From NCBI RefSeq assembly GCF_003852405.1, contig NZ_QAJM01000036.1, forward strand, positions 1 through 37,083: a DNA stretch of 37,083 nt, read 5' to 3'. This stretch comes from Pseudomonas sp. KBW05 (lineage in GTDB: Bacteria > Pseudomonadota > Gammaproteobacteria > Pseudomonadales > Pseudomonadaceae). The translations under genes were made by a program, and so were the position numbers. Numbering within the stretch: the stretch's first letter is position 1; every line of letters begins with the position of its first letter. Below, piece by piece: positions 24,369 to 26,797 of this stretch. Under the pieces are notes generated by a model that searched no databases, was not told where the DNA came from, and worked only from the letters and a program-made list of their open reading frames with translations.

Positions 24369-24400
24369 GGGACAACTCCGGCAAAGTGATGGTTGATTCG

Positions 24401-24424
24401 ATAGTTCGATGGTAATCGAACTAT
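24401..24424. promoter_or_regulatory. Perfect palindrome operator between xenA and arsR-like gene
   Basis: ATAGTTCGAT (24401-24410) and ATCGAACTAT (24415-24424) are exact inverted repeats with a 4-bp spacer. The site lies 33 bases from the xenA start and 37 from the regulator start, so one dimer could control both promoters. ArsR-family operators are imperfect or perfect 12-2-12-like dyads, which fits. Confidence 0.75.
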
Positions 24425-24460
24425 AGTATTCAGCGATACCCCCCTGTTATCATTCGTTTC

Positions 24461-24760
24461 ATGCGAGCCTTCAAACACCCCCTTGTCCAAGACCTTACCC
24501 TGGAACGCGTGCTCTATGCGCTGAGCGACCCGGTGCGCCTGGAAATCGTGCGCTGCCTGGCCGGCGTAGCCGAAGCCACGTGCGGCGAATTGGATGGCGG
24601 GCGGCCCAAGTCGAGCATGTCCCACCACTTTCGCGTGTTGCGTGATGCGGGGTTGGTGCAGACGCGGAGTGTGGGGACCACGCATATGAATGCGCTGCGG
24701 GCGGAAGATCTTGAGGAGCGGTTTCCCGGGTTGCTGGCCAGTATTCTTGCCCAACGGTAA
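24461..24760 (+). CDS. ArsR-family helix-turn-helix regulator
   Basis: 99 aa winged-HTH repressor. RVLYALSDPVRLEIVRCLAG is the ArsR N-terminal helix pair, and SSMSHHFRVLRDAGLVQTR is the recognition helix and following strand. The metal-binding ELCVCDL box of metalloregulators is absent (the segment is EATCGELDGG, with a single Cys). It is therefore probably a redox- or ligand-sensing member controlling xenA. No strong ribosome-binding site precedes the ATG, so the leader may be short. It converges with the fic gene, 8 bp apart. Confidence 0.9.
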   Translation: MRAFKHPLVQDLTLERVLYALSDPVRLEIVRCLAGVAEATCGELDGGRPKSSMSHHFRVLRDAGLVQTRSVGTTHMNALRAEDLEERFPGLLASILAQR

Positions 24761-24768
24761 AGAAAGGG

Positions 24769-25515
24769 TTATTCCATTGGCGGAATCAACCGCCCTCTGT
24801 AGGTGTTGTAGATGTGTTGAACCTCGGGGTTGTCCAGGCTCTCGTAGGTAATCCCCTCCTTATCAAGCCCATCCAACCCTTTGATGCCACCGATCATTGT
24901 TGCCCACTCGTCACGGTGGGCAATGTCCACCACAAAGGGTTTCAAGTAATGACTCAGATGCCCTTTGAACGGTGACTCAATCTCTTCGCTGAGCGCCCTG
25001 AGGTAGTCATCCTTGTTGGTTCTGGACCATTCAATCGCGAACTTGGCTCGATAACAGAGCTCCATGAACACCAGCAGAATCGTACGTCCATTGCCATCCA
25101 GAAAAGGATGCGCGAAGGCTAGCTGGCCCATGACATCGCCAGGACTGTCGCGAAAACGTTTTTTGTTCGACGCCAATTCCAGTGCATAGTCGACTGAAAG
25201 CTTTATAGAGCCAGGATGCTCGAAGACGGTACGGTAAGGATCGTTTTCGGAGCCTTTGAAGACCGCGAGATGCGGTACAAGCTCGTTCCGATCCTTGCCC
25301 GCCCAGGGATAGAAACCAGAAAACAGGATCTCGTGCACTTTGCGCACCGACCTGTAATCAATTGGCTTTTTCTTGGCAAGGAAATCAAGCGCCTCTTCCA
25401 GGCTCAATTCAAACGAAAGATGCTCGGATTCTTTTACTTCGACGGGGTCTTTGAGCTTTAGAGCGTTTTGAAGATATCCAGCGGTTTCAAAATCGCCGAA
25501 GGGATCGAAGCTCAT
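24769..25515 (-). CDS. fic: Fic-domain protein (toxin), non-canonical motif
   Basis: 248 aa Fic-fold protein, usually an enzyme that transfers AMP to target Ser/Thr/Tyr side chains. The N-terminal FDPFGDFETAGYLQN segment is typical of Fic toxins, and GFYPWAGKDR forms the flap-side region. The catalytic loop HPFLDGNGR is at residues 136-144, with catalytic H136 and D140. The usual motif continues as GNGRxxR; here the second Arg is Leu (L147 in GRTIL), removing a residue that contacts nucleotide phosphate and the inhibitory Glu. The start ATG overlaps the stop of the upstream small gene (ATGA), the normal antitoxin-toxin layout. It could use another nucleotide or chemistry, or be inactive. Confidence 0.92.
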   Translation of the reverse strand: MSFDPFGDFETAGYLQNALKLKDPVEVKESEHLSFELSLEEALDFLAKKKPIDYRSVRKVHEILFSGFYPWAGKDRNELVPHLAVFKGSENDPYRTVFEHPGSIKLSVDYALELASNKKRFRDSPGDVMGQLAFAHPFLDGNGRTILLVFMELCYRAKFAIEWSRTNKDDYLRALSEEIESPFKGHLSHYLKPFVVDIAHRDEWATMIGGIKGLDGLDKEGITYESLDNPEVQHIYNTYRGRLIPPME

Positions 25516-25775
25516 GCGCGAAGTTTCTTCGCCAAGCAGCGCTTTTCCTGGAGGTAGCTGCCTTGGAGCGCCAAGGTTTCCGACTTGCTCAGAACGCCCT
25601 TCCTCGTGAGGTTAACCAACAACTGCTCCACGCCGTCCAGCTGGACCACATCGCCAGCCAGGCCGGTAATTGCCACGGCCATCCGGCTAACACCGTCACG
25701 TTCGGCGGTGACATGATGAATTTCAGCCATTTTGCGCACTTTATCAGCGATGGTTTCACGGGCTGTATCAGTCAT
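25512..25775 (-). CDS. Small antitoxin-like protein, VbhA-like C-terminus
   Basis: 87 aa protein encoded immediately upstream of fic, with a 4-bp ATGA overlap. The start at 25775 has GAGGAG at good spacing; the longer frame upstream lacks support. Position and size fit a class I Fic antitoxin. The C-terminal part (residues about 49-78, VEQLLVNLTRKG then VLSKSETLALQ) resembles the VbhA helix, where S-x-x-x-E-G supplies the inhibitory Glu. In this alignment the Ser is N55 and the Glu is K59, so the inhibitory motif is lost. An alternative near-match TAERDG (residues 23-28) has Asp instead of Glu. Function is inferred from arrangement, not from a confident family match. Confidence 0.75.
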   Translation of the reverse strand: MTDTARETIADKVRKMAEIHHVTAERDGVSRMAVAITGLAGDVVQLDGVEQLLVNLTRKGVLSKSETLALQGSYLQEKRCLAKKLRA

Positions 25776-25906
25776 TGCAAACTCCTCGATTAGCCCAAGA
25801 AGCATAGCATGGCGTTCGTTTCCCCTCCCCCCCCAGCGAACCTTTCCCCCCAAACCCGCGTCCGAGCTAAGGCACTCTTGCCCACCGCTCGCCGCGAGGT
25901 CGTCGT

Positions 25907-26797
25907 TTGAAAGCCGCCATCATCAAAAAATACCGCCTGATCATCAAGACCATGGGCTATGTAGGCTGGGCCCTGTTCTGGCTGTTGCTGTGGGATGTCG
26001 CCGTCACGGTGGATTTCATGCTGTTCCTCACCTACAAGATCAACCTGCCGCTGATGCCGCTGACTTTGCTCGGTTCAGCGCTGGTGGTACTGATCAGTTT
26101 TCGCAACAGCAGCGCCTATAACCGTTGGTGGGAGGCGCGCACGCTGTGGGGGGCGATGGTCAACAATTCGCGCAGTTTTGCGCGCCAGGTGCTGACGCTG
26201 CTGGATGACCCCGACAACGAAGTCAACCCGGTCAAGGCCACCCTGTTGCGTCGGCATGTGGCCTATGTGAACTGCCTGGCCGCGCACCTCAAGGGCCAGC
26301 CGTGCCCCGATGAGGTGCGCGCGTTCATCCCCGGCGAAGAGTTCGCGCGCAACGGCACCACCAATAATTTTGCCAACGACATCCTCACCGGCTCGGCAGC
26401 CTTGCTGGCCAAGGAATACAAGGCCGGCCACCTGGACAGCATCCGCCTGGCGCGGCTGGAGTCGACCCTGGTGGATTTGTCCAATGCCCAGGGCGGCATG
26501 GAACGCATCGCCAACACCCCGCTGCCCTACCCCTACGTGTATTTTCCGCGCCTGTTTATCTCGCTGTTCTGTCTGATCGTGCCGGTGGGCCTGGTGGAAT
26601 CCCTCGGCTGGTTCACCCCGCTGGCCTCGACGGTGGTAGGTTTTATGCTGCTGGCCATCGAGCGCATCGGCACCGACCTGCAAAGCCCGTTCAACTCCAG
26701 CGAGCACCAGATCCAGATGGACACCATCTGCGAAACCATCGAGAAAAACCTGCAATCGATGCAGCGTGATGCCCTGGGTGGCGAGCGCATCGGTTAA
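25907..26797 (+). CDS. Bestrophin-like (UPF0187/YneE) channel protein
   Basis: 296 aa inner-membrane protein of the bacterial bestrophin family, which forms pentameric ion channels (KpBest is Na-selective). Visible features are hydrophobic segments near residues 18-40 and 48-65, the family signature FRNSSAYNRWWEARTLWG (about 65-82), and the C-terminal pair of membrane helices around 213-250 (YFPRLFISLFCLIVPVGLVES; PLASTVVGFMLLAIERIGTDLQSPF). The last stretch matches the family's conserved neck/exit region (IG..L..PF). Translation appears to begin at a TTG (25907), since the next ATG would remove the first helix. It stands alone. Confidence 0.88.
   Translation: MKAAIIKKYRLIIKTMGYVGWALFWLLLWDVAVTVDFMLFLTYKINLPLMPLTLLGSALVVLISFRNSSAYNRWWEARTLWGAMVNNSRSFARQVLTLLDDPDNEVNPVKATLLRRHVAYVNCLAAHLKGQPCPDEVRAFIPGEEFARNGTTNNFANDILTGSAALLAKEYKAGHLDSIRLARLESTLVDLSNAQGGMERIANTPLPYPYVYFPRLFISLFCLIVPVGLVESLGWFTPLASTVVGFMLLAIERIGTDLQSPFNSSEHQIQMDTICETIEKNLQSMQRDALGGERIG

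Follow-up and report, generated by a model that had tools for sequence, protein, structure and literature searches.

A Fic gene and its overlapping upstream partner

The window analysed here, a 37,083-nucleotide stretch of the genome of Pseudomonas sp. KBW05, carries on its minus strand a gene for a Fic-domain protein, directly preceded by the gene for an 87-amino-acid partner (Table 1). The two overlap, as the earlier note had read, by 4 nt, and the same 4-nt overlap occurs at most of the homologous loci tabulated. A small overlapping antitoxin-type gene directly upstream of the Fic gene is the arrangement of class I FicTA modules, and the ATGA overlap is expected to couple the translation of the two proteins. 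In base composition the pair stands apart from its surroundings (52.0% G+C versus 62.3% for the window), and 0 of 145 one-kb windows are equally low. The insertion site is variable. In the window (24400-26500) the neighbours of the Fic/partner pair are an arsR/old-yellow-enzyme pair on one side and a bestrophin-like gene on the other, all named by eye; at the same site one relative (G004) has a phosphoesterase-like ORF and another (G017) a GGDEF-type ORF, also named by eye from sequence. Because other genes occupy this site in the two relatives, the Fic/partner pair appears to be an accessory module that has moved horizontally. The best PADLOC model for the window Fic is PDC-S04 (5e-23), a name that we take to denote a phage-defence candidate.

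Table 1. Features of the Fic/partner pair, in window coordinates
Feature	Position	Strand	Evidence or remark
Candidate antitoxin gene	25512..25775	-	87 aa, ATG start; ORF list
Fic-domain toxin candidate	24769..25515	-	248 aa ORF; PF02661; AlphaFold2 pLDDT 87.6
ATGA overlap, antitoxin stop/Fic start	25512..25515	-	4 nt; sequence
Shine-Dalgarno-like GAGGAG, 5' of antitoxin start	25782..25787	-	sequence
Fic active-site motif HPFLDGNGRTIL (residues 136-147)	25075..25110	-	sequence
Leu147 in place of the canonical second Arg	25075-25077	-	Leu/Met/Ile/Val in 146/146 subfamily loci
Ala133 (His minus 3), inferred ribose-side position	25117..25119	-	Ala in 144/146; Asn in 19/19 canonical
Leu175, aligned with VbhT Ser175; inferred equivalent of BepA 198, ribose hydrogen bond	24991..24993	-	Leu in 141/146
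Partner N55 to G60 (NLTRKG)	25596..25613	-	position 58 Arg/Lys in 75/75 aligned partners
Partner D42 to D47 (DVVQLD)	25635..25652	-	both Asp invariant, 75/75

The window protein belongs to the Fic/Doc superfamily by its Pfam match (PF02661, 36.5 bits versus a cutoff of 24) and by its Fic fold, and Fic is the only Pfam family that matches the chain. VbhT is the best match in the fold search (3shg_A; E 1.6e-8, 25% identity, TM by target 0.77) and the best solved relative by sequence (8.7e-14); the AlphaFold2 model has predicted strands at residues 83-87 and 97-98. His136 and Asp140, reported as intact in the earlier note, are present together with Arg144, and the ORF bears out the central observation that Leu147 stands at the place of the second Arg, where it aligns with the VbhT Arg. 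The protein departs from the canonical AMPylating motif HxFx(D/E)GNGRxxR at position 12, which is Leu, and from the Doc motif HxFx(D/N)(A/G)NKR at residue 143, which is Gly and not Lys, as in 77 of 78 subfamily members. No (S/T)xxxE(G/N) inhibitory motif of the class II/III kind lies within the window Fic chain.

An altered nucleotide pocket

Goepfert et al. (PMC3667792) show that the second Arg contacts the gamma-phosphate. Section 3.3 of PMC8401265 places Asn or Asp and Ser or Cys next to the ribose, with a flap Phe stacked on the base. Judging by alignment and by the spacing of the motif, we infer that the ribose and base residues correspond to positions 133, 175 and 98 of the window Fic, with position 133 equated, on the wording of that section, to BepA 156. 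The residue three before the catalytic His (His-3) is Ala in 29 of 30 aligned subfamily members versus Asn in 19 of 19 class I-type Fics, which were chosen for comparison for having the second Arg. At position 175, Leu is found in 29 of the 30; among the 19 canonical Fics this residue is Asn in 12, Ser in three, Leu in two, Met in one and Cys in one, and in view of the two with Leu the change is less clear-cut. The flap Phe98, located by alignment, is kept in 30 of 30 subfamily members versus 17 of 19 Arg-bearing comparison Fics. The pocket has thus lost its gamma-phosphate contact and at least one residue on the ribose side, and it retains the alpha/beta-phosphate nest, the Mg ligand and the catalytic His. 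Since the flap Phe is retained, the pocket may still be compatible with an adenine nucleotide in the usual pose.

The residue at His-3 varies between Fic classes: of 75 other motifs that bear the second Arg, 28 have Glu there and 38 have Asn. Other Fics without the second Arg retain Asn133 in eight of nine cases, and for this reason the other Arg-less Fics of the pocket comparison are a different phenomenon.

A subfamily without the second Arg

Subfamily sequences occur in 36 of 299 Pseudomonas genomes (by our reading of the match rows), and 80 loci were kept out of 102 relatives on GTDB contigs. The subfamily was found in 20 of 146 genomes of one genus (that of G512), of which one locus (L150) groups in the tree with a Bradyrhizobium locus (L098), and in 7 of 249 genomes of one family (that of G549). 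Plasmids were also searched for homologues, and viral contigs gave seven loci, three of them subfamily members by motif. Among 398 Pseudomonadota genomes, six subfamily matches score at least 326 bits and the next Fic among the matches listed scores 66 bits. Further members come from Acidobacteria and Desulfobacteraceae bins (L100, L102).

Over the 146 subfamily loci, a count that includes between-collection duplicates and broken copies, motif position 12 is Leu in 108, Met in 34, Ile in 2, Val in 2 and Arg in none. The earlier note had named close relatives with the normal Arg and Glu as the sign of point decay; none of the subfamily relatives examined has the Arg. The catalytic core is conserved in the aligned subfamily, with His in 77 of 78, Asp or Glu in 78 of 78 and the first Arg in 78 of 78. 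D75, R156, W163, K168 and Y171 are invariant in the 30 aligned subfamily members of the pocket comparison (across the 146 loci, Arg at position 156 in 144) and are absent, or only partly present, in the comparison Fics. In a tree of 58 selected Fics (30 subfamily, 28 other) the subfamily forms one clade with support 97/95. Other Arg-less Fics fall outside this clade, so the second Arg has probably been lost more than once among Fics. Both genes are under purifying selection. Against close relatives, dN/dS is 0.03-0.08 for the Fic gene (3 pairs with estimable dS; two more are saturated); for the partner, five pairs give 0.11-0.17. All these values are rough given the high dS.

Some members vary further. 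Two loci (L011, L053) have the subfamily motif HPFLDGNRRTIL, in which the second Gly is Arg, a change that should block the usual triphosphate pose, and in one (L083) the catalytic His is Gln (QPFLDGNGR). In a Pseudomonas group that includes P. monteilii, the Fic ORF continues in frame to form a fusion protein of 428-430 aa (L027, L028, L083, L087; also L085 and L088), and the remainder of the L027 fusion is a near full-length MobA (TIGR02665, 5.1e-59). The Agrobacterium plasmid pAtG3_79b (L145:3986-5377) and the Allorhizobium plasmid pAtS4b, typed as conjugative (L147:2838-4212), each encode a subfamily Fic domain inside a longer protein; the L147 protein is annotated as BID-domain, and its copy is split. 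By eye, both have a similar small partner upstream.

The partner protein

The partner is predicted to form four helices (9-19, 28-39, 48-58 and 64-86; pLDDT 90.2). A17, A33, D42, D47 and L53 are invariant in the 75 aligned partners, and E50 is nearly invariant. N55 and K59 are as given in the earlier note, followed by G60, and (S/T)xxxE(G/N) is found neither in the window partner nor in any of the 75 aligned partners. With the motif absent from all 75 partners and the Arg from all 146 loci, the pattern goes beyond chance.

The line-up of the partner with the VbhA inhibitory helix, proposed in the earlier note, found no support in sequence. Comparison by hhalign with five VbhA-family proteins gave probabilities of 0.2% and 0.1%, from few enough sequences that a remote kinship could escape; the window partner has no credible match in Pfam or NCBIfam, the VbhA family included; a search of PDB sequences with the partner profile (hmmsearch) gave no credible match; and Foldseek gave nothing at E <= 0.001. 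A weak structural hint comes from the FicA antitoxin BiaA (5eu0_B), a non-significant entry in the Foldseek list (E 6.2, rank 34) that was spotted post hoc.

Longer partner homologues from beta- and gamma-proteobacteria carry an AbiEi/DUF6088 winged-helix domain at the N-terminus. Pfam matches to AbiEi and DUF6088 occur in 8 and 7 of 18 members, respectively (limit E 1; best 1.2e-5 and 2.3e-5), and PADLOC called AbiEi on the two long partners that it was given (L104, 4.7e-24; L108, 7.4e-19). In Pfam and PADLOC the window partner lacks this domain.

Genomic context suggests what the partner does. Searched alone in 200 Pseudomonas genomes, it gave 25 loci, and a Fic gene or its remnant flanks 24 of them. 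Among 121 non-duplicate loci (the 146 minus 23 duplicates and two cut by locus ends, L100 and L162), both genes are intact at 104 and a broken Fic gene lies beside an intact partner at 15, where broken is defined by a length and motif rule and some cases may be sequencing errors. The rest comprise one locus with both genes broken and one broken Fic gene for which no partner was found; an intact Fic gene beside a broken partner occurs at none. Under a null in which breakage is proportional to length, the chance of 15 out of 15 is about 1% by our own arithmetic. This asymmetry is the pattern expected if the toxin must go first. Broken partners do exist elsewhere, one beside a Fic fragment (G107) and one where no Fic was found (G064). 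Linkage, overlap and toxin-first decay make the partner a candidate antitoxin.

In two Pseudomonas loci (L035, L069) the Fic stops after nine residues, both at codon 10, and the partner is intact. Among the fetched loci no natural single-ORF fusion of the two proteins turned up; long frames such as those of L155 (345 aa) and, within its locus, L162 (713 aa) were set aside, by eye, as upstream sequence read out of frame or as a truncated Fic attached to a different protein. Covariation between Fic and partner, computed as mutual information with average-product correction over 57 non-redundant pairs, was not used, as the top pairs look phylogeny-driven.

Loss of Arg and of Glu in other Fic lineages

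The earlier note had called the two losses complementary. Both sides are indeed absent in the subfamily, but the relation is not a strict rule in other lineages. We took a census of 84 other loci that contain a Fic frame; it is a convenience sample, and its motif-bearing loci are chiefly Pseudomonas AntF-type pairs. The strict motif occurs in the upstream ORF at 31 of the 84, and the Arg is kept in 30 of these, including a second Fic of the KBW05 genome (L001). At the remaining locus (L206) the Fic is of the Doc type, with GNKR, and the motif-bearing ORF is probably a chance occurrence. Nine of the 10 Arg-less loci lack a strict upstream motif. The 44 Arg-bearing loci without an upstream motif divide into 34 that have it in the Fic frame itself and 10 that have it in neither. 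Coupling between Arg loss and Glu loss is therefore suggestive and no rule, and as a strict general rule it was rejected on possible counter-examples both ways. Four GNGRxQL Fics (L129, L143, L208, L218) have lost the Arg, and their upstream partner (ISAVEGxxLSPRM, 'ISAVEG') may keep the Glu; two full-motif Fics (L205, L214) keep the Arg, and their upstream ORF reads SFAYGN, with Gly where the inhibitory Glu is expected. Two GNGRxQM Fics (L139, L140), also without the second Arg, have their own small upstream ORF with LQAMEDNPLD.

One further locus (L141) has Glu at the second Arg position (GNGRTTE) and, by eye, a VbhA-like partner with Gln for the inhibitory Glu (NYRQG). By analogy with the Arg-to-Glu form of Fic-1 (R146E), which deAMPylates without antitoxin and whose change is shared by at least 95 UniProt proteins according to PMC13327609, the L141 Fic could be a built-in deAMPylase.

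Interpretation

What kind of Fic pair is this? With moderate confidence, we read it as a type II toxin-antitoxin module whose Fic belongs to a separate subfamily, with altered donor binding and a neutralisation that is independent of the Glu-Arg2 contact. Of these two traits, non-canonical donor handling is likely, and a neutralisation that needs no Glu is very likely. The Fic protein, given its fold and intact core, would be a His136-dependent transferase onto a hydroxyl of a cellular protein. It retains the alpha/beta-phosphate and Mg site (D140, G141, N142, G143, R144), and the gamma-phosphate position (L/M147) and, by our mapping, the ribose positions (A133; less surely L175) are apolar, so that the donor would be bound differently, either as a nucleotide with an unclamped gamma-phosphate or as a donor lacking a gamma-phosphate. 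The upstream protein would neutralise the Fic by direct binding without a Glu-Arg2 salt bridge, and its AbiEi-type winged-helix homologues probably also repress their operon.

Different neutralisation, which the earlier note had proposed, follows from the absence of both sides of the known salt bridge. Its alternative of different nucleotide handling is strengthened by the further pocket change at A133, and less firmly by that at L175; the idea that loss of the Arg by itself alters the chemistry is weakened. As described in PMC13327609, the Fic-1 mutant R146A, altered at the same Arg, still AMPylates and its toxicity is detectable; an enzyme that loses only Arg2 may thus keep its usual donor.

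More speculatively, and as a tentative proposal that we would not call likely, this could be a Fic lineage with an intact catalytic loop in which the residues that contact the gamma-phosphate and the ribose of ATP (the second Arg, the Asn at His-3 and probably residue 175) have given way to apolar ones, and which takes the transferred group from something other than ATP bound in the usual way, together with a new antitoxin family that has a different interface and doubles as an AbiEi-type repressor where fused. Such an interface might, for example, set the subfamily-specific toxin residues R156 and K168 against antitoxin D42/D47 and E50.

A plainer account, possible though unlikely in our judgement, is an ordinary class I AMPylating Fic that tolerates Arg2 loss and holds ATP in the usual pose, with an antitoxin that is a diverged FicA and uses its third helix (48-58), not a Glu, as a steric block of the site. 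In favour of this account, Fic-1 R146A remains active, the flap Phe, His, Asp, second Gly and first Arg are all kept, VbhT is the best match in both fold and sequence, and BiaA is among the partner's Foldseek rows, though at a non-significant score. Plain tolerance of Arg loss, however, does not explain the fixed change at position 133, where most other Arg2-less Fics keep Asn, and a diverged FicA sits uneasily with a partner that has no detectable sequence similarity to VbhA. It is improbable that the protein is instead a phosphotransferase of the Doc/AnkX type, which binds its donor inverted and transfers a phosphate or other phosphoryl-linked group, not a nucleotide. Doc-type GNKRxx[not R] proteins, as grouped in PMC4454073, and AnkX, whose motif is given as HxFxDANGRxxV in PMC3667792, also lack the second Arg, and the donors of Doc and AnkX are bound inverted (PMC4177925); yet the Gly-to-Lys change blamed for the Doc inversion in that paper is absent from the subfamily, the flap Phe is kept by alignment, and the extra CMP domain that AnkX uses (PMC4177925) has no counterpart in a protein that is Fic alone in Pfam.

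Very improbable, in our view, is a catalytically dead or regulatory pseudo-Fic whose relation to the partner has nothing to do with toxicity. The departure from the canonical AMPylation signature and the single relative without the catalytic His (L083) would fit it, but the near-complete conservation of His, Asp/Glu and the first Arg, the purifying selection and the toxin-first decay all argue against it, as does the Campylobacter fetus protein Fic2, described in PMC5651007 as lacking the second Arg and the second Gly and yet being toxic through its His. Random point decay of a normal FicTA pair would fit the accessory nature of the module and its frequent breakage in Pseudomonas (broken or fragmentary in 10 of 36 genomes with subfamily sequence, by our reading of the rows). 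It is ruled out by the fixation of the Arg-less state in 146 of 146 loci, intact ones included, by the 97/95 clade and by dN/dS well below 1, and the earlier note's preference for a coevolved subclass over decay is upheld on the same evidence.

The toxin-antitoxin module with altered donor binding and Glu-independent neutralisation that we favour matters for a known rule. One Arg clamps the ATP gamma-phosphate and is also what the antitoxin Glu grips to turn the Fic off, and the same Arg-Glu contact switches Fic-1/AntF on to deAMPylation. A large natural clade without either side, selected together with its own partner, offers a test of other donors and other off switches. An Arg-less Fic toxin as such is already known; the GNGR-keeping Arg-less clade, its coupled His-3 change and the antitoxin family are new. 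Text searches of part of the literature returned no title or abstract describing this Fic group.

Comparison with known systems

The window pair resembles VbhT/VbhA and FicT/FicA in its Fic fold, a similar N-terminal start and a small candidate antitoxin gene immediately upstream. It is unlike them in that the subfamily lacks the second Arg and has Ala, not Asn, at His-3, and the subfamily partner has neither (S/T)xxxE(G/N) nor detectable sequence similarity to VbhA. Fic-1/AntF, a toxin with a small partner, is also from Pseudomonas. In the account given in PMC13327609, AntF Glu28 inhibits Fic-1 and drives deAMPylation, with Fic-1 Arg146 as its salt-bridge partner; unlike that system, the window pair lacks the equivalents of both residues. 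The KBW05 genome also encodes a Fic-1/AntF-type pair (L001), with GNGRAQR in the Fic and SLRLEG upstream.

Campylobacter fetus Fic2, together with clade F3 GNTRxx[not R], offers a parallel as an Arg2-less Fic with unusual neutralisation (by Fic1 and Fti3; PMC5651007, PMC4454073). Fic2 has Thr at the second Gly, whereas GNGR is retained in the subfamily, whose Fic genes have an upstream partner of their own. Five Fic/Doc motif groups, some without the last Arg, are distinguished by Khater and Mohanty in section 6 of PMC4454073; they account for the majority of sequences though not for every one, and none of them combines GNGR with the absence of the last Arg. Like Doc/Phd, the window pair is a candidate toxin-antitoxin module whose Fic protein does not have Arg at position 12. 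Doc, however, has Lys at the second Gly (PMC4177925), where the window Fic keeps GNGR, and is described in PMC2686095 as lacking core helices and the beta-hairpin, whereas strands 83-87 and 97-98 are predicted in the window Fic.

Finally, the beta/gamma-proteobacterial partner homologues share an N-terminal winged helix with AbiEi/DUF6088 antitoxins, whereas the window partner lacks the winged helix and, unlike in AbiEi systems, the candidate toxin is a Fic. The AbiE toxin is the AbiEii nucleotidyltransferase, and the AbiEi winged-helix link connects two toxin-antitoxin worlds.
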